Positions 33,867-43,197 of a stretch of 64,000 nt of DNA are shown in pieces. Numbering within the stretch: the first letter of the stretch is position 1; every line of letters starts with the position of its first letter. Source of the stretch: Olleya sp. Bg11-27 (GTDB lineage: Bacteria; Bacteroidota; Bacteroidia; Flavobacteriales; Flavobacteriaceae); NCBI RefSeq assembly GCF_002831645.1, contig NZ_CP025117.1, positions 310,001 through 374,000 on the forward strand, written 5' to 3'. Position numbers and translations under genes: made by a program. The notes below the pieces were generated by a model. It saw only the letters and a program-made list of their open reading frames with translations. It had not been told where the DNA came from and ran no database searches.

Positions 33867-36800
33867 TTACTTTTTTATAATTAATTTTTTAGAAATTATA
33901 TTTGAACGATCTCTAGCTTTAACAAGATACATACCTTCACTTAAATCCCCAATATATAAATCCGTTACTATATTAGCCTTTATTTTAAATGCCTTGACGG
34001 TCTGACCTAATAAATTAACTATTTCAAAGTCTCCACTAATAGCAGACTTAAAACTAACATTGTTACTACTAGGGTTTGGATACATAGAAAATTTAACTTC
34101 ATTTTCAAACGTATCTATACCTAATGTAGATATTGTAACACAAAGTGATTCAACAACACACCCTCCAGAAGTAACAACCACTTTATAATCACCATTTGTT
34201 AAAGGTGTAAAATCTTGCGCGGTCTCTCCTGTCAACAAAGTACTAGGGCATTGATACCATTGATATGTTGCTCCAGCTTCATTCGCTGTTAACACAACAC
34301 CTACCTGAGTGATTGTATTGTCTACACTTAATACCTCTACAGTATCACTAGCAGAATTCGTGCAGCCATTAGCATTTGTAAAGGCGTAAGTAATTGTATG
34401 TGTTCCAACACCAGCTGCTGCTGGGTCAAAAGAATACGTCATGCCGTTACCATCGTCTGTAACTCCTGCTCCAGAATACACACCGCCAGTAGCTATTCCT
34501 CCACCTAAACCAGTTTGTTCACCTGCATCAATACATAAATCTGCTGGTGCCGTAAAGGCTACTGTTGGTAAAGCGAATACTTCTATAGCGTCAGAAGCTG
34601 CGTTTGTGCAACCATTAGCGTTTGTAAAGGCGTAACTAATTGTATGTGTTCCAACACCAGCTGCTGCTGGGTCAAAAGAATACGTCATTCCGTTACCATC
34701 GTCTGTAACTCCTGCTCCAGAATACACACCGCCAGTAGCGGTTCCTCCTCCTAAACCAGTTTGTACACCTGCATCAATACATAAATCTGCTGGTGCCGTA
34801 AAGGTTACTGTTGGTAAAACGAATACTTCTATAGTGTCAGAAGCTGCGTTTGTGCAACCATTAGCATTTGTATAGGTGTAAGTAATTGTATGTATTCCAA
34901 TACCAGCTCCTGCTGGGTCAAAAGAATACGTCATGCCGTCACCATCGTCTGTAACTCCTGCTCCAGAATATACTCCTCCTGTTGCAGTTCCTCCACCTAA
35001 ACCAGTTTGTACACCTGCATCAATACATAAATCTGCTGGTGCCGTAAAGGCTACTGTTGGTAAAGCGAATACTTCTATAGTGTCAGAAGCTGCGTTTGTG
35101 CAACCATTAGCATTTGTATAGGTGTAAGTAATTGTATGTATTCCAATACCAGCTCCTGCTGGGTCAAAAGAATACGTCATGCCGTCACCATCGTCTGTAA
35201 CTCCTGCTCCAGAATATACTCCTCCTGTTGCAGTTCCTCCACCTAAACCAGTTTGTACACCTGCATCAATACATAAATCTGCTGGTGCCGTAAAGGCTAC
35301 TGTTGGTAAAGCGAATACTTCTATAGTGTCAGAAGCTGCGTTTGTGCAACCATTAGCATTTGTATAGGTGTAAGTAATTGTATGTATTCCAATACCAGCT
35401 CCTGCTGGGTCAAAAGAATACGTCATGCCGTCACCATCGTCTGTAACTCCTGCTCCAGAATACACACCGCCAGTAGCTATTCCTCCACCTAAACCAGTTT
35501 GTTCACCTGCATCAATACATAGATCTGCTGGTGCCGTAAAGGCTACTGTTGGTATCGCGAATACTTCCATAGTATCACTAGCAGAATTCGTGCAACCATT
35601 AGCATTTGTAAAGGCGTAAGTAATTGTATGTGTTCCAACACCAGCTGCTGCTGGGTCAAAAGAATACGTCATGCCGTCACCATCGTCTGTAACTCCTGCT
35701 CCAGAATACACACCGCCAGTAGCGGTTCCTCCACCTAAACCAGTTTGTTCACCTGCATCAATACATAAATCTGCTGGTGCCGTAAAGGCTACTGTTGGTA
35801 AAGCGAATACTTCTATAGCGTCAGAAGCTGCGTTTGTGCAACCATTAGCGTTTGTAAAGGCGTAACTAATTGTATGTGTTCCAACACCAGCTGCTGATGG
35901 GTCAAAAGAATATGTCATGCCGTTACCATCGTCTGTAACTCCTGCTCCAGAATACACACCGCCAGTAGCGGTTCCTCCACCTAAACCAGCTTGCACACCT
36001 GCATCAATACATAAATCTGCTGGTGCCGTAAAGGCTACTGTTGGTAAAGCGAATACTTCTATAGTGTCAGAAGCTGCGTTTGTGCAACCATTAGCGTTTG
36101 TATAAGTGTAAGTAATAGTATGTGTTCCAACACCAGCTCCTGCTGGGTCAAAAGAATATGTCATGCCGTTACCATCGTCTGTAACTCCTGTTCCAGAATA
36201 TACACCGCCAGTAGCTGTTCCTCCACCTAAACTAGCCTGTACACCAGCATCAATACATAAATCTGCTGGTGCTGTAAAGGTTACTGTTGGTAAAGCGAAT
36301 ACTTCTATAGCGTCAGAAGCTGCGTTTGTGCAACCATTAGCGTTTGTATAAGTGTAAGTAATAGTATGTGTTCCAATACCTGCTACCGCAGGATCAAAAG
36401 AATACGACGTTCCGTTGCCATCATCGGCAACTCCTGTTCCAGAATACACACCGCCAGTAGCGGTTCCTCCACCTAAACCAGTTTGTTCACCTGCATCAAT
36501 ACATAAATCTGCTGGTGCCGTAAAGGCTACTGTTGGTAAAGCGAATACTTCTATAGTATCAGAAGCTGCGTTTGTGCAACCATTAGCGTTTGTATAAGTG
36601 TAAGTAATAGTATGTGTTCCAATACCTGCTACCGCAGGATCAAAAGAATACGACGTTCCGTTACCATCGTCTGTAACTCCTGTTCCAGAATATACTCCTC
36701 CTGTTGCGGTTCCTCCACCTAAACTAGCCTGTACACCAGCATCAATACATAAATCTGCTGGTGCCGTAAAGGCTACTGTTGGTAATGCGAATACTTCTAT

Positions 36801-38420
36801 AGCATCAGAAGCTGCGTTTGTGCAGCCATTAGCGTTTGTAAAGGTGTAAGTAATAGTATGTGTTCCAACACCAGCCCCTGCTGGGTCAAAAGAATACGAC
36901 GTTCCGTTACCATCATCGGTAACTCCTGTTCCAGAATACACACCGCCAGTAGCTATTCCTCCTCCTAAACTAGCCTGTACACCAGCATCAATACATAAAT
37001 CTGCAGGTGCTGTAAAGGTTACTGTTGGTAAAGCATTAATAGTTACACTTACACTTGAACTATTTGGGCAACTTCCTGCAGTTGTATACATAATAGTATA
37101 GGTGTTTGGTACTGTAGCAGACACATCAATTTCTCCTGTACTTGCATTAATACTAATACCAACTGTAGAACTAAATGTTCCACCAGTTACACCTGTAATA
37201 GTTGGTGTTGGATCACTAGCATCAGCACAATAAGAAGCTGCGCTGTAGCTAAAGCTTGCATCATCTAAACCATTAATAGTAACACTAACGGCTTCTGTAC
37301 CATCACACAAACCAGGCGAATTATACTCAACAGTATAAGTATTAGGTGTTGAAGCTGAAACATCAATAGTACCAGTATTAGAGTTTATAGACAATCCTCC
37401 TGAAGCTGAAAAATAACCTCCAGAAACTCCGGTAATAGTGGGTGTTGGATCAGCACCATCAATACAATAAGCCGATGCATCATAATTAAAAGAAGCATCC
37501 TCTTTAGCTGTTGTATTTATAGTTATGGTTCCGCAAGCCCCAGGAGTTACACAGCCACCTTCACCTCGAATATAATAGGTTGTACTTGGTGGCGTAGGTG
37601 TTACAATAACAGATGATCCAGTTGTTGTCGTCACTAAAGTCCCTCCGCATGAGCCTGTATAAACAGACCATTGCGTTGCATCATTTTTATTTCCAGAAAT
37701 AGAAATAAGAGCAGAATTTCCATCACATATTACTGGAGGACCAAATCCTGCTGTTGGTATATCTGGCGCTGTACAGGTAGGAGCCACACCCCAAGTAAAA
37801 GCATCCAAAGCTAAATAATCTGCATCGTTAGTAGCAGATATTAAAATTTCGTCTACGTTAGTATTTGAATTATCTGAACCACCTTCGGTAGAAAAATTAA
37901 TAAAAGTAAAACCATTGTTAGGTGTTAAGGAAGGAGCATTAACAATCCCAGAACTTTTTATAATTGAAAATACAGTTATACCGTCTTTTTTCCCAGTAAA
38001 GGTTAATGTAGTTGTTGGAGGATTAGGATCAGAAAGGTTTCTTCTAGAAACAAATAAATAAAAACTTTTAAGAGTAATATCGGTACCATCAGTAGTTTTA
38101 ATAGTAAAAGAAGACCCATCACCTAATGCAGGACTTCCGGCTGAGTTATCAATAAAAATATTATCAGCAAAAGTTCCATTCCAACCTCCTCCAGCGTAGG
38201 TTTCAATGTCATAGCTGATTTCACCAGAACCATTTTCAATGGTAAAACTCTGTCCATTATCACTAAAAGTAGTTGCATTAACACTTTCATCTTCGAATGC
38301 CTCTGTCGTTTGGGCGGAAGCTTTTAAGCTCAGACAGCTTAAAAAAAGAAATACCACAAAAAATTGTAAGTATTTAAAGGGTAAACATTGAGTAGTTTTT
38401 TGTTTCATTTTTTTTTGCAT
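33867..38420 (-). CDS. Giant T9SS-exported protein with eleven 82-residue repeats
   Basis: A 1517-residue secreted protein. The order is: signal peptide ending near KASAQ (residue 37); an N-terminal jelly-roll-like region (about 38-215) with ADYLALDAFTWG; a short Cys-rich Ig-like region; two repeats with YCIDGADPTPTITGV and YCADASDPTPTITGV; then eleven repeats of exactly 82 residues running from about 463 to 1364; a unique module; and a type A T9SS sorting domain (FSMYPNPSSNNVSF ... GMYLVKARD ... KKLIIKK). Each long repeat opens LPTVAFTAPADLCIDAG and closes GCTNAASDTIEVFA, with two cysteines each that may form a disulfide. The form suggests a surface fibre or adhesin; no ligand is indicated. 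It stands alone. Confidence 0.88.
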   Translation of the reverse strand: MQKKMKQKTTQCLPFKYLQFFVVFLFLSCLSLKASAQTTEAFEDESVNATTFSDNGQSFTIENGSGEISYDIETYAGGGWNGTFADNIFIDNSAGSPALGDGSSFTIKTTDGTDITLKSFYLFVSRRNLSDPNPPTTTLTFTGKKDGITVFSIIKSSGIVNAPSLTPNNGFTFINFSTEGGSDNSNTNVDEILISATNDADYLALDAFTWGVAPTCTAPDIPTAGFGPPVICDGNSALISISGNKNDATQWSVYTGSCGGTLVTTTTGSSVIVTPTPPSTTYYIRGEGGCVTPGACGTITINTTAKEDASFNYDASAYCIDGADPTPTITGVSGGYFSASGGLSINSNTGTIDVSASTPNTYTVEYNSPGLCDGTEAVSVTINGLDDASFSYSAASYCADASDPTPTITGVTGGTFSSTVGISINASTGEIDVSATVPNTYTIMYTTAGSCPNSSSVSVTINALPTVTFTAPADLCIDAGVQASLGGGIATGGVYSGTGVTDDGNGTSYSFDPAGAGVGTHTITYTFTNANGCTNAASDAIEVFALPTVAFTAPADLCIDAGVQASLGGGTATGGVYSGTGVTDDGNGTSYSFDPAVAGIGTHTITYTYTNANGCTNAASDTIEVFALPTVAFTAPADLCIDAGEQTGLGGGTATGGVYSGTGVADDGNGTSYSFDPAVAGIGTHTITYTYTNANGCTNAASDAIEVFALPTVTFTAPADLCIDAGVQASLGGGTATGGVYSGTGVTDDGNGMTYSFDPAGAGVGTHTITYTYTNANGCTNAASDTIEVFALPTVAFTAPADLCIDAGVQAGLGGGTATGGVYSGAGVTDDGNGMTYSFDPSAAGVGTHTISYAFTNANGCTNAASDAIEVFALPTVAFTAPADLCIDAGEQTGLGGGTATGGVYSGAGVTDDGDGMTYSFDPAAAGVGTHTITYAFTNANGCTNSASDTMEVFAIPTVAFTAPADLCIDAGEQTGLGGGIATGGVYSGAGVTDDGDGMTYSFDPAGAGIGIHTITYTYTNANGCTNAASDTIEVFALPTVAFTAPADLCIDAGVQTGLGGGTATGGVYSGAGVTDDGDGMTYSFDPAGAGIGIHTITYTYTNANGCTNAASDTIEVFALPTVAFTAPADLCIDAGVQTGLGGGTATGGVYSGAGVTDDGDGMTYSFDPAGAGIGIHTITYTYTNANGCTNAASDTIEVFVLPTVTFTAPADLCIDAGVQTGLGGGTATGGVYSGAGVTDDGNGMTYSFDPAAAGVGTHTISYAFTNANGCTNAASDAIEVFALPTVAFTAPADLCIDAGEQTGLGGGIATGGVYSGAGVTDDGNGMTYSFDPAAAGVGTHTITYAFTNANGCTNSASDTVEVLSVDNTITQVGVVLTANEAGATYQWYQCPSTLLTGETAQDFTPLTNGDYKVVVTSGGCVVESLCVTISTLGIDTFENEVKFSMYPNPSSNNVSFKSAISGDFEIVNLLGQTVKAFKIKANIVTDLYIGDLSEGMYLVKARDRSNIISKKLIIKK
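34326..37031 (-). repeat. Eleven 246-bp tandem repeats in the giant protein gene
   Basis: 2706 bp in exact 246-bp units without any indel. Units 7, 8 and 9 are almost identical at the protein level (8 and 9 differ only in the last residue). Variable residues are confined to a few positions: V/E and ASL/TGL/AGL after CIDAG, T/A in SGTGV/SGAGV, and the TYTYT/TYAFT/SYAFT segment. They occur in mosaic combinations, as expected from recombination between repeats. Confidence 0.95.
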
Positions 38421-38520
38421 TTACAGTTCAGTTACAAATATATTTTTTTTTTGTAATTCAACATCAATCATAACTATAATGTTTTAAAAAACAAGTACTT
38501 ATACACATTAAAAAAACACG

Positions 38521-38582
38521 TATTTATACGTATAGGATAAATAACTATTTATACGTACAGGATAAATAACTATTTATACACC
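38521..38582. repeat. 25-bp direct repeats upstream of the methyltransferase-like gene
   Basis: TATTTATACGTAnAGGATAAATAAC occurs at 38521-38545 and, directly joined, 38546-38570 with one substitution. A third partial copy (TATTTATACACC) follows at 38571. They lie in the gap between two divergent genes, about 75-135 bp before the ATG at 38658, and could be protein-binding iterons. Confidence 0.85.
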
Positions 38583-40322: not shown

Positions 40323-40538
40323 AATAATAAAATTTAAAAATTAGTTTAAAATAAGTTCTAGATGTAAGAAATATGTATAATAACAATCCCAAAGCTATAC
40401 CTACCAATCATTTTACATAAGCGTATAATCACGGAGTATTAAAACCACGTAAAAACACCTGTTTTTGGTAAAACTATTTTTTATGTGAATTAGTATGACT
40501 AGATTTATATTATAATTAAAACCAAAATATAAAAAACC

Positions 40539-40973
40539 ATGAGTAAAAATGAAGTAACACTAGAAAACGCAAAAATTTGGGCAAAAAAATGGCAAACTGA
40601 AAATCCAAAGCATTGCAAAGCTTTTTTAATGCCTGCAATAGATTTAATAGAAACCCTTTTAGAAATGAACGTTCTAGTAAAACAAGAAGACGGCAACTAC
40701 AGCCTTCAAAATGTCGAATCTAGCGGTGTTCGTGCCTATATGGCAATTGATCAAGAAGTTGAAGAAGGTTTTGGAGAAAAGTTGCTACTTGTTGGTACTA
40801 AAGTAGACTGTAAAGATATTCATCGCGATATTATTGAAGACGAAAAACCTTCTGGTTGTGACAACAGTGATGTAGATACAGCTGTAAATAAATTAAATGG
40901 AAGCGGTGTTTTTGATTTTACGTCACCTTGTCCAAGTGATTGCGATATAAATAGTCCCTTATCCAATTCATAA
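40539..40973 (+). CDS. Small conserved protein heading a two-component operon
   Basis: A 144-residue soluble protein with no signal peptide. The first 70 residues are helical (VTLENAKIWAKKWQ, FLMPAIDLIETLLEM). The centre SSGVRAYMAIDQEVEEG followed by KLLLVGTKVDCKD is a beta-rich block that recalls a widespread but uncharacterised Bacteroidota family. The C-terminal part is Asp/Ser-rich with cysteines in a CxxDC pattern (FTSPCPSDCDINSP). It is followed after 6 bp by the membrane protein gene, then kinase and regulator, so it is probably the input or the output partner of that system. No function is known. Confidence 0.75.
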   Translation: MSKNEVTLENAKIWAKKWQTENPKHCKAFLMPAIDLIETLLEMNVLVKQEDGNYSLQNVESSGVRAYMAIDQEVEEGFGEKLLLVGTKVDCKDIHRDIIEDEKPSGCDNSDVDTAVNKLNGSGVFDFTSPCPSDCDINSPLSNS

Positions 40974-40979
40974 AATTTA

Positions 40980-41618
40980 ATGAAATTAATTAGTTCCCTT
41001 TTTGAATACTTAGGAATAGCTATACTTTTTATTAATGCTTTGTTGTTTTTTAAAAGCTATACTTCAAAAAAAAGTATGGCTTTTAAATATTTTAGCTTTT
41101 ATTTAGGGACTTCTTTAATTATTGTGGTAATAACATCTACGTTATCGTATTTTACAAAAGACAATCTTTACTTATCACATTTTTATTTTATTGGACAATT
41201 TATTCTATTATCCTTATTTTACCGAGAATTACTAAATACGAATCAAAAAAAGATAGTCAATACTATTTTAGCGCTTGTTTTATTTACTTTATCGTTACAA
41301 TATGCAAATACTCCTGATCTTTTCTTTAAATTTTTCGTTTTTGAAATTTTTATAACCTCTTTTCCTATTGTCGTATATTCCATTATTCATCTCTATAATT
41401 CAATAAGTAAAAAAGGGGCGTATATTTATATAAATGCAGGAATCCTAATTTATCTAACAACTAGCACTTTAATATTTATTCTAGGAGATTATTTATCTGA
41501 ATATAATAACACTACGATTAAGAAAATTTGGTTAGTTAATAAAATATTATATCTAATATATTTAATATTAATTTTTATAGAATGGACGAAAACATTATCG
41601 ATGGACAAGAACAAGTAA
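40980..41618 (+). CDS. Multi-pass membrane protein of the two-component operon (candidate sensor)
   Basis: A 212-residue integral membrane protein with about six to seven helices and short loops, for example FEYLGIAILFINALLFF at the start, FYFIGQFILLSLFYREL in the third and YINAGILIYLTTSTLIFIL near the end. No soluble domain and no motif that I recognise. Its last 37 bp overlap the kinase gene, implying translational coupling. It may be the membrane sensor serving the kinase, which itself has only one helix; this is inference. Confidence 0.75.
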   Translation: MKLISSLFEYLGIAILFINALLFFKSYTSKKSMAFKYFSFYLGTSLIIVVITSTLSYFTKDNLYLSHFYFIGQFILLSLFYRELLNTNQKKIVNTILALVLFTLSLQYANTPDLFFKFFVFEIFITSFPIVVYSIIHLYNSISKKGAYIYINAGILIYLTTSTLIFILGDYLSEYNNTTIKKIWLVNKILYLIYLILIFIEWTKTLSMDKNK

Positions 41619-42385
41619 TAATAGCTTTAGTCTATGGACTTATTTTTTTAGTATTACTTACGACTGGACTGATTTTATTTTTTCATTATTCAAGACGAAA
41701 AATCATTCAAAAAGAGCTTGAAAAAGCTGCTTTAAAACTTGAAAATCAGCAAAAAATATTACAAACCTCCATCGCTATTCAAGAGAGAGAACGCAAACGT
41801 ATTGCTCAAGATTTACACGATGCTATCAGCTCTAAATTAAACATTATAAGTTTAACCACTAATGTTTTACTAATAGATCAAACCATTAGTGAAAAACAGA
41901 AAATAGCTTTAGAACAAATATTAAATATTACTACGGGTACTTTAGAAAGCGCACGTAAAATTGCACACGATTTATTACCTCCTATTTTAAATGAATTTGG
42001 TCTTAAAGCTGCCTTACAAGAATTATTTGAAGACTTTTCTAAACACACTAAAATAGAGATTGAAGATAACGTTGAAGCACTAACTAGACTATCAAAAAAC
42101 GATCAACTACATGTCTTTAGGATCGTTCAAGAACTGATTAACAACTCCATTAGACATGGTAAGGCTAACGAGTTAGTGGTTTACATGGAGCAAAATGAGA
42201 CCGATTTTGTAATACGCTATCAAGACAATGGACAAGGGTTTGATGTTAAAAAAATACACGAAAAATCAGGAATAGGCCTTCAAAATATAAAAAGTAGAGT
42301 TAAGATTTTAAAAGGGATACTAAAAATAGAAAGCACACCCAATAACGGAAGTCAATTTATTATACGTTGTAGTTATGAAAGATAA
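41582..42385 (+). CDS. HisKA_3 family sensor histidine kinase
   Basis: A 267-residue NarX/DesK-type kinase. One transmembrane helix (about residues 11-33) has only ten residues outside, followed by a coiled linker, the HisKA_3 domain with the phospho-accepting His in ERKRIAQDLHDAISS near 80, and the HATPase domain with VQELINNSIRHG near 180, YQDNGQGFD and GIGLQNIKSRV. It has no sensor domain of its own. It overlaps the membrane-protein gene by 37 bp and the regulator gene by 11 bp. Confidence 0.9.
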   Translation: MDENIIDGQEQVIIALVYGLIFLVLLTTGLILFFHYSRRKIIQKELEKAALKLENQQKILQTSIAIQERERKRIAQDLHDAISSKLNIISLTTNVLLIDQTISEKQKIALEQILNITTGTLESARKIAHDLLPPILNEFGLKAALQELFEDFSKHTKIEIEDNVEALTRLSKNDQLHVFRIVQELINNSIRHGKANELVVYMEQNETDFVIRYQDNGQGFDVKKIHEKSGIGLQNIKSRVKILKGILKIESTPNNGSQFIIRCSYER

Positions 42386-43055
42386 AATAAAAATTGCATT
42401 AGCAGATGACGAACTTTTATTTAGACAAGGTCTAAAAGCTATTTTAGAAACTAATGAAGCTATAGATGTCCTTTTTGATGTTGAAAATGGAGAGTACTTA
42501 ATACAAGAATTAAGAACCGCTAAAACTTTACCTGAAATAGTAATTACCGACCTTAAAATGCCCGAACTTAACGGTGTTGAAGTAACTAAACTTATTAAAA
42601 AAGAGTTTCCCGATATTAAAGTTATTGCGTTGACTAGCTATTTTAGCAAACCCTTTATTTTAAATATGATATCTATAGGCGCTGTCGCTTATTTAGCAAA
42701 AAATAGCACACCCGCCTTAATGATTAAAACCATAGAAGAAGTGGCAGCTAAAGGTTTTCACTACGACACACAAGTCATGCAATACATTCATGAAAGCATT
42801 GTAAATCCCGCAGATAAAAAAGTAAAGTCTAGTTTTGATACTAATTACTTTACTAAACGTGAAATAGAAATTTTAGAGCTTATTTGTCAGCAACTAACGA
42901 CGGGTGATATTGCCGAAACCCTATTTATAAGTCCTAGAACTGTTGAAGGGCATCGTAATAATCTACTACTTAAGACAGAGTCCAAAAATGTTGCTGGCCT
43001 AGTTATCTATGCTTTAAAAAACAAATTAGTATCCCTAGATAATGATACGTTTTAG
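42375..43055 (+). CDS. NarL/FixJ-type response regulator
   Basis: A 226-residue regulator. The receiver domain has IKIALADDELLFRQGL at the start, the phospho-accepting Asp in IVITDLKMPELNG near 58, and the Lys in YLAKNSTP. The C-terminal LuxR-type helix-turn-helix reads LTTGDIAETLFISPRTVEGHRNNLLLKT. It is translationally coupled to the kinase. Targets unknown; autoregulation of the operon is plausible. A terminator-like hairpin follows at 43157. Confidence 0.92.
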   Translation: MKDKIKIALADDELLFRQGLKAILETNEAIDVLFDVENGEYLIQELRTAKTLPEIVITDLKMPELNGVEVTKLIKKEFPDIKVIALTSYFSKPFILNMISIGAVAYLAKNSTPALMIKTIEEVAAKGFHYDTQVMQYIHESIVNPADKKVKSSFDTNYFTKREIEILELICQQLTTGDIAETLFISPRTVEGHRNNLLLKTESKNVAGLVIYALKNKLVSLDNDTF

Positions 43056-43156: not shown

Positions 43157-43197
43157 AAAAAAAAAACACCTCAACATTTTTTATGTTGAGGTGTTTT
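43157..43197. terminator. Terminator between the two-component operon and the Bax-inhibitor-like gene
   Basis: Stem AACACCTCAACAT / ATGTTGAGGTGTT preceded by A8-A10 and followed by TTTT. It directly abuts the GCGTTA element. Confidence 0.85.

Follow-up and report, generated by a model that had tools for sequence, protein, structure and literature searches.

The question raised by a four-gene locus of Olleya sp. Bg11-27 (Flavobacteriaceae, Bacteroidota) is how a histidine kinase without a sensor domain might receive its signal. The locus occupies positions 40539 to 43055 of the window, a 64,000-nucleotide stretch of the 4.31-Mb contig NZ_CP025117.1 (positions 310,001 to 374,000). Its + strand carries, in succession, the genes for a soluble protein of 144 amino acids (SMALL, 40539..40973), a membrane protein of 212 amino acids predicted to have seven transmembrane helices (TM, 40980..41618), a HisKA_3 histidine kinase of 267 amino acids with one transmembrane helix (HK, 41582..42385) and a NarL/LuxR-type response regulator of 226 amino acids (RR, 42375..43055). 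SMALL and TM are separated by 6 bp, TM and HK overlap by 37 bp, and HK and RR overlap by 11 bp. Recomputed coordinates reproduced every reading frame, strand, gap and overlap given in an earlier note on this DNA.

The HisKA_3 and HATPase_c domains of HK and the Response_reg and GerE domains of RR were found above the Pfam cut-offs. The same scan gave no other domain above cut-off in HK, in agreement with the earlier description of a single-helix kinase without a sensor domain and a NarL-type regulator. The N-terminus of HK contains one hydrophobic segment, and its sequence holds DLHD, QELINN, DNGQGF and GIGLQN, which are the phospho-acceptor histidine and ATP-box motifs of the kinase. Gene order, the division over separate polypeptides and the intactness of the kinase and regulator motifs can be read from the sequence, from which the seven-transmembrane topology is predicted. 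The HK-RR pair alone is ordinary: its domains, order and overlap are those of HisKA_3/NarL two-component systems, from which the locus differs in that the kinase lacks a sensor domain and two more conserved genes precede it.

The most likely explanation is that SMALL and TM are the sensing half of a split kinase, and the four separate proteins probably work together as one receptor. The sensing role, partner binding, membrane side, direction of signalling, operator and targets are inferred as follows. SMALL would be the ligand-binding part, or the ligand, and would meet the outer face of TM, which would relay the signal laterally within the membrane to the single helix of HK. The kinase would phosphorylate RR, and RR would bind a palindrome between SMALL and a divergent gene encoding a tail-collar-domain protein. 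In collar-linked lineages the system would thereby control itself and tail-fibre-like or other secreted surface proteins. A probability of about 0.5 is assigned to this reading, by which the four genes make up a single signalling unit with a receptor kinase split over separate polypeptides, and RR drives its own operon and surface proteins.

Conservation of the layout was surveyed in 349 genomes of the family, 395 genomes of the phylum and additional GTDB loci. Genes were taken to follow one another if they lay on the same strand with at most 700 bp between successive recognised genes, and they were labelled by profile match, with four or more hydrophobic segments accepted as an alternative for TM. 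The SMALL and TM profiles matched 51 and 60 of the 349 family genomes, and broader profiles matched 42 and 65 of the 395 phylum genomes, respectively; the unit is therefore scattered through Bacteroidota and not universal. Within the family, SMALL was followed by TM in 51/51 genomes and the complete SMALL-TM-HK-RR order was present in 47/51, so the arrangement recurs beyond chance, counts across related genomes not being independent. Two of the four exceptions stop at a contig edge (L114, L094) and two are without a recognised regulator (L107, L136). In the phylum survey, where 46 loci represent 42 genomes, TM followed SMALL in 45 (the one exception, L184, stops at a contig end), and all four genes were found in 33. 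Eight of the 13 incomplete loci are 3-kb stretches that end short of the regulator, and L197, L200, L208 and L211 are either genuine departures or contain unrecognised parts. All four genes were present in 27/27 GTDB loci. Conserved co-occurrence of the four genes, named in the earlier note as a check on its proposal, was thus observed in all three sets.

The spacing is tight, start codons having been assigned mechanically: the median distance was +7 bp between SMALL and TM (n=127; 114 of these within 60 bp), -20.5 bp between TM and HK (n=118) and -4 bp between HK and RR (n=105). The outer neighbours vary by clade. Many loci come after a gap/gpi-like gene group and others have saccharopine-dehydrogenase-like and Lrp-like genes nearby (names assigned by eye); the four-gene block itself is therefore the conserved unit. 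In the titled GTDB loci, the protein most similar to SMALL belongs to Olleya sediminilitoris (Flavobacteriaceae), with 85% identity. Two or three TM genes stand in tandem in L097, L100, L117, L109, L200 and L253, and the SMALL-TM pair is repeated as SMALL-TM-SMALL-TM-HK in L191 and L197, and similarly in L106. Fourteen TM loci without a match in the SMALL search (L250, L252-L264) were chosen by hand for reading, and in 14/14 an open reading frame (ORF) occupies the small-gene position. It was weakly matched by the SMALL profile in seven, and a CPxxC- or CPPxC-like tail was seen in nine (L250, L252, L253, L254, L258, L259, L261, L263, L264). The tail is partly kept in L256, L257 and L260, looser in L255 and absent from L262.

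Several observations in the same surveys weigh against a single four-part unit. TM homologues occur without a kinase in L029, L143, L145 and L147, and L137 (3922-7197) has TM, HK, RR and a divergent collar-like gene with no detectable SMALL between. Distance co-variation between SMALL and TM was weak (partial r 0.15); it was 0.32 between SMALL and HK and absent between SMALL and RR (-0.04), in a set of 84 loci where each gene occurred exactly once, reduced to 73 when near-duplicates were dropped. The small gene is also missing from the TM-HK loci L139, L140 and L144. The lone TM homologues of L029, L143, L145 and L147 lie beside genes of 419-425 and 139-140 amino acids, a separate conserved context. 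One of the 27 complete GTDB loci (L239) lies on a contig labelled as a Verrucomicrobia metagenome-assembled genome, for which transfer or a binning error may account.

No convincing family was found for SMALL, TM or their relatives in Pfam, NCBIfam, PHROG or PADLOC, and sequence comparison of the two proteins with the PDB gave no credible match. The profile searches that the earlier note had suggested for them likewise brought out no known enzyme family in the libraries searched. An AlphaFold model of SMALL is a compact alpha+beta domain with a mean predicted local distance difference test score (pLDDT) of 87.6, the C-terminal stretch being less certain (block means of 75-83 for residues 121-144). 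Against the PDB its best Foldseek E value was 0.32 and its best VIA-align Z score 2.5, with no clear relative; a new fold is not thereby established. The SSGVRAYMAID segment and cysteine tail (CPSDC) pointed out previously are both present in the window protein, whose tail reads SPCPSDCDINSPL. The family is most readily recognised by this conserved tail, whose form is about DFTxPCPxxCDxxSPL.

The tail cysteines could make SMALL a redox or metal sensor, and a pair 3-5 residues apart within the last 45 residues is present in 108 of 125 SMALL ORFs. However, the pair as scored is missing in 17; six loci (L097, L100, L102, L103, L109, L186) have lost both cysteines and kept SPL, and L181, L182 and L185 keep one. 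These losses weaken redox or metal sensing as a general mechanism, and it is regarded as very unlikely.

The location of SMALL bears directly on its role. Export signals were looked for with a simple hydrophobicity score and visual inspection, in place of a dedicated predictor, and by these means none was found in the window protein. Among the 125 ORFs nine were scored as having one, five of them two-domain forms. The near absence of such signals counts against a receptor with an outer SMALL, and the window protein and most of its relatives may have a cytoplasmic role. The SMALL domain is probably extracytoplasmic in some lineages, because homologues with lipoprotein-like or signal-anchor-like N-termini exist. 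Single-domain forms of these kinds are found in L190 and L148 (lipoprotein-like; L148, from the family survey, ends in DFTHPCPTAC) and in L207, L208, L136 and L252 (signal-anchor-like). An anchor-like protein in L261 and a lipoprotein-like one in L262 occupy the small-gene position, their kinship to SMALL resting on position and, in L261, on the tail. Five lipoprotein-like forms of 252-271 amino acids contain the SMALL domain and tail; they lie inside the operon in L188 (5122-5880), upstream of it in L114 (1619-2434) and downstream in L224 (8737-9510), L225 (8759-9535) and L226 (8775-9560). By analogy with these relatives, the window protein may be extracytoplasmic too. In L094 (4896-5939) the SMALL domain is the C-terminal part of a protein of 347 amino acids.

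SMALL might instead be a cytoplasmic accessory, a modulator or anti-kinase acting on the inner face of TM or on the kinase, with TM alone sensing a small molecule or the state of the membrane in the manner of LiaF and LiaS. LiaFSR systems combine an accessory membrane protein, a short-sensor HisKA_3 kinase and a NarL-type regulator, all of which have counterparts here. The locus differs from them in that TM models as a seven-helix bundle and an extra small protein is present. The Pfam matches obtained for 26 TM members at an E value of 0.1 included no LiaF-type domain, and HK scored 112.3 bits against the Strep_LiaS model, short of the cut-off of 450. The cytoplasmic alternative agrees with the missing signal peptides and with the stronger co-variation of SMALL with HK than with TM. 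An accessory membrane protein joined to a kinase-regulator pair is also a known layout, as in the case of LiaF (PMC7191749). The cytoplasmic alternative is difficult to reconcile, however, with the lipoprotein- and anchor-like forms at the same position in eight loci (L190, L207, L208, L136, L148, L252, L261, L262), and is considered unlikely, though a good deal less so than redox sensing.

The model of TM consists of seven long helices (mean pLDDT 88.9). In Foldseek its first matches were sensory rhodopsin II and folds like those of G-protein-coupled receptors (GPCRs), with probabilities of up to 0.99, and VIA-align superposed it on a class T GPCR (7xp6) with a Z score of 12.6 and a root-mean-square deviation of 4.0 Å over 204 residues. 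Two values weaken this match: the Foldseek E values were 0.12 or worse, and a Z score of 12.6 is below the caution level of about 13, i.e., within the chance range for helical bundles. An N-out/C-in topology, which fits the GPCR and rhodopsin fold, is predicted because basic character is strongest in loops 1, 3 and 5 and at the C-terminus across 119 TM homologues. Conserved residues include N62 (96%), N119 (87%), Y158 (95%), S162 (86%), N170 (74%) and N187 (85%); in the window protein, phenylalanine takes the place of N119 and aspartate that of N170. The polar positions 62, 66, 67, 119, 170 and 187 are well kept and lie at or towards the outer ends of the helices. The earlier suggestion that TM or the small protein may sense the signal is made likelier by the seven-helix, receptor-like model, the predicted topology and the export signals of some SMALL homologues.

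No catalytic-looking set of residues is kept among the 119 TM homologues: no cysteine column exceeds 35% and no histidine, aspartate or glutamate column exceeds 77%, His67 being kept in 77%. An AgrB-like protease identity for TM was rejected on these residues, which bear on a further explanation. In it, SMALL would be an output or pheromone-like product with a processed or exported tail, TM would export it, cleave it or confer immunity to it, and HK-RR would be a switch of the quorum type, like Agr or Com. Agr systems comprise a small gene product, a small membrane protein, a kinase and a regulator, and AgrB carries a catalytic histidine and cysteine. The four-part composition is alike, the small gene comes first in the operon, its product has a recognisable C-terminal tail modelled with lower confidence, and SMALL is duplicated in pairs with TM. 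Against this, TM is without the conserved protease residues of AgrB, SMALL is a folded domain of about 100-150 amino acids, and its anchored or lipoprotein-like forms would not diffuse. A pheromone system is accordingly judged improbable, ranking between the cytoplasmic accessory and the redox sensor.

The split-receptor reading can also be compared with receptors in which the parts are known. In 7TMR-DISM proteins (PF07695) an outer module, a seven-transmembrane core and a kinase module are combined, and the likeness of the present unit is one of concept, its modules lying on separate polypeptides. No TM-HK fusion that could serve as a Rosetta stone was seen among the places listed from the 65/395 genomes, where all TM frames were of 290 amino acids or fewer; the term split membrane receptor, used in the earlier note, fits this absence. 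PF07695 was touched weakly by 3 of 26 TM members (best E value 0.0011), and neither the window TM nor any other protein of the Bg11-27 genome (G000) matched it. In hhalign, TM compared with 16 PF07695 domains gave probabilities of 15% and 9% in two alignments, against 0.3% and 4.5% for an unrelated seven-transmembrane control, the control alignment being shallow (5 rows).

Sensory rhodopsin II pairs with the transducer HtrII, and here too a seven-transmembrane protein would act on a separate transducer helix; the first Foldseek match was a structure of this rhodopsin (3qap, E value 0.12, TM score 0.52). The likeness to TM is one of structure. Helix 7 of TM has no conserved lysine column short of its cytoplasmic end, and a retinal protein was rejected on that ground. 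The four-gene unit is comparable to LiaFSR and similar systems with an accessory protein and, as a concept, to the modular 7TMR-DISM receptors, and falls short of membership of both. No description of such an operon was found in the openly licensed literature at the level of the opening portions of abstracts, and the unit is conserved yet apparently uncharacterised.

The proposed output of the system rests on the neighbour of SMALL, a divergent gene for a tail-collar-domain protein of 197 amino acids (PF07484; 39729..40322, - strand). This protein matches 19 PHROG families, mostly tail proteins, and is the only PF07484 match in its genome. A collar gene was found within 1.5 kb in 44 of 116 SMALL loci, a redundant set in which some genomes occur twice (e.g., L010/L213, L012/L220, L113/L226), and the nearest one was always upstream and divergent; the link spans several genera and one other family (L190). 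Collar genes were present in 25 of 40 operon-bearing genomes and in 8 of 40 genomes without a small-protein match (Fisher 2e-4, relatedness ignored). The former set comprised 38 of the 51 family genomes plus G004 and G005, with G000 tested apart; 12 of the 51 had been omitted by hand after their neighbourhoods were viewed, one of which, G127, has adjacent collar genes. Of the 26 operon genomes with collar genes, a number that includes G000, 14 have one beside the operon. In the remaining 12 the collar genes lie elsewhere, which counts against the proposed reading.

Between the collar gene and SMALL lies a candidate operator, an imperfect palindrome CACGTA-N4-CACCTG (40443..40464) that lies 74 bp before the SMALL start codon and reads CACGTAAAAACACCTG at 40446. 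By eye, the motif is about ACA[CG]GTA-N4-[TC]AC[CG]TGT, and it fits the shape of a NarL-type site. For comparison between loci, similar upstream regions and those shorter than 200 bases were removed, which left 105 of 118. GTA-N4-YACC on either strand, 60-130 bp upstream, occurred in 26 of these 105 and in 25 of 649 other ORFs of the same loci, control ORFs that were called mechanically and number collar genes with the same motif among them; 200 shuffles gave a mean of 0.9 and a maximum of 5. When the span was widened to 60-200 bp upstream, the motif was present in 26 of the 34 collar-linked regions and in 8 of the 71 others, Fisher values for the motif as for the collar comparisons ignoring relatedness. 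The 63 of 71 non-collar regions without the motif count against the proposed reading.

Since the motif is mostly tied to collar loci, the palindrome may belong to the collar promoter instead. A tentative alternative, likelier than the others considered here and short of an even chance, is that the collar link is inherited synteny and the palindrome belongs to the promoter of the collar gene and has no relation to RR. Many collar-linked loci do come from related genera and share the same outer neighbours, the motif is rare without a collar gene, and similar palindromes (TACGTA-N4-TACGTA) occur at many genome positions. Yet the collar-SMALL pair recurs amid other neighbours in other genera (L180, L183, L188, L101, L130) and in another family (L190), and motif-like sites exist in some non-collar loci, one inside the family (L125) and four outside it or so labelled (L016, L028, L205, L239). 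In the preferred assignment, RR would bind the palindrome as its operator. On the far side of the collar genes in L180, L182, L183 and L188 comes a possible surface cassette: a gene of about 383 amino acids similar to that of the Peripla_BP_6 protein of L010, one of formyltransferase-like type (checked against Pfam in L180) and one for a large secreted protein.

It is doubtful, though conceivable, that the split receptor represents a phylum-wide class in which an extracytoplasmic folded partner acts on a GPCR-like seven-transmembrane protein driving a separate kinase, and in some lineages controls phage-tail-derived surface proteins. The layout is kept across families and classes of Bacteroidota, and two of its proteins are unnamed by the family libraries searched. 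If the proposal is true, two groups of hypothetical proteins would gain a function, the locus would offer a tractable model of a seven-transmembrane protein signalling to a separate kinase, and the adjoining tail-collar and other surface proteins would be predicted as outputs of the system.

The genome contains a second, diverged copy of the operon (L250; G000:C1 2753500-2762000), whose proteins have 259, 207, 250 and 222 amino acids. The operon (2378-5187 of L250) is followed by a gene of 235 amino acids and then by a tail-fibre-like gene of 339 amino acids (398-1417) with PHROG tail matches (best E value 4e-7). This copy counts in favour of the proposed reading and, like the divergent collar gene and the motif, is not part of the earlier note. 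At the first operon, a terminator-like hairpin of 15 pairs lies 3' of RR (43163..43197, scored on the - strand; one was found against a shuffle mean of 0.3).

Scanning the genome with a first motif pattern at up to three mismatches gave 83 hits against 59 in a reversed control; single distant sites were therefore not trusted, and prediction of a regulon by the motif was abandoned as too little above the control. The palindromic pattern gave 51 hits against 14 per strand in the control, and most of those listed belong to an element, TACGTA-GAAC-TACGTA, that recurs in this genome. That palindrome, AAATACGTAGAACTACGTATTT, occurs in nine copies about 138-140 bp apart at G000:C1 1238919-1240051 and, singly or in near-identical form, at many scattered places that include the region upstream of the second operon, and is possibly the site of another regulator or a repeat element. 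Apart from it, the best-matching palindromes lie at 1896772 and 460559, in the operon itself and at 979416; the site at 1896772 is flanked, at distances of 442 and 676 bp, by two small proteins that bear type IX sorting tails. Within the window, two more motif-like palindromes (3 and 2-3 mismatches) were found at 38488..38535, 68 and 93 bp before a candidate target gene for a secreted protein of 1517 amino acids that consists mostly of near-identical repeats and has a type IX sorting tail (33867..38420, - strand), and 150 and 125 bp before a divergent gene of 342 amino acids. A further motif-like site lies 78 bp before a probable modified-peptide cluster (L282, 4219-7025; near 2244.7 kb of G000), which contains a cysteine-rich putative precursor peptide of 104 amino acids, a gene of 362 amino acids and a YcaO cyclodehydratase.

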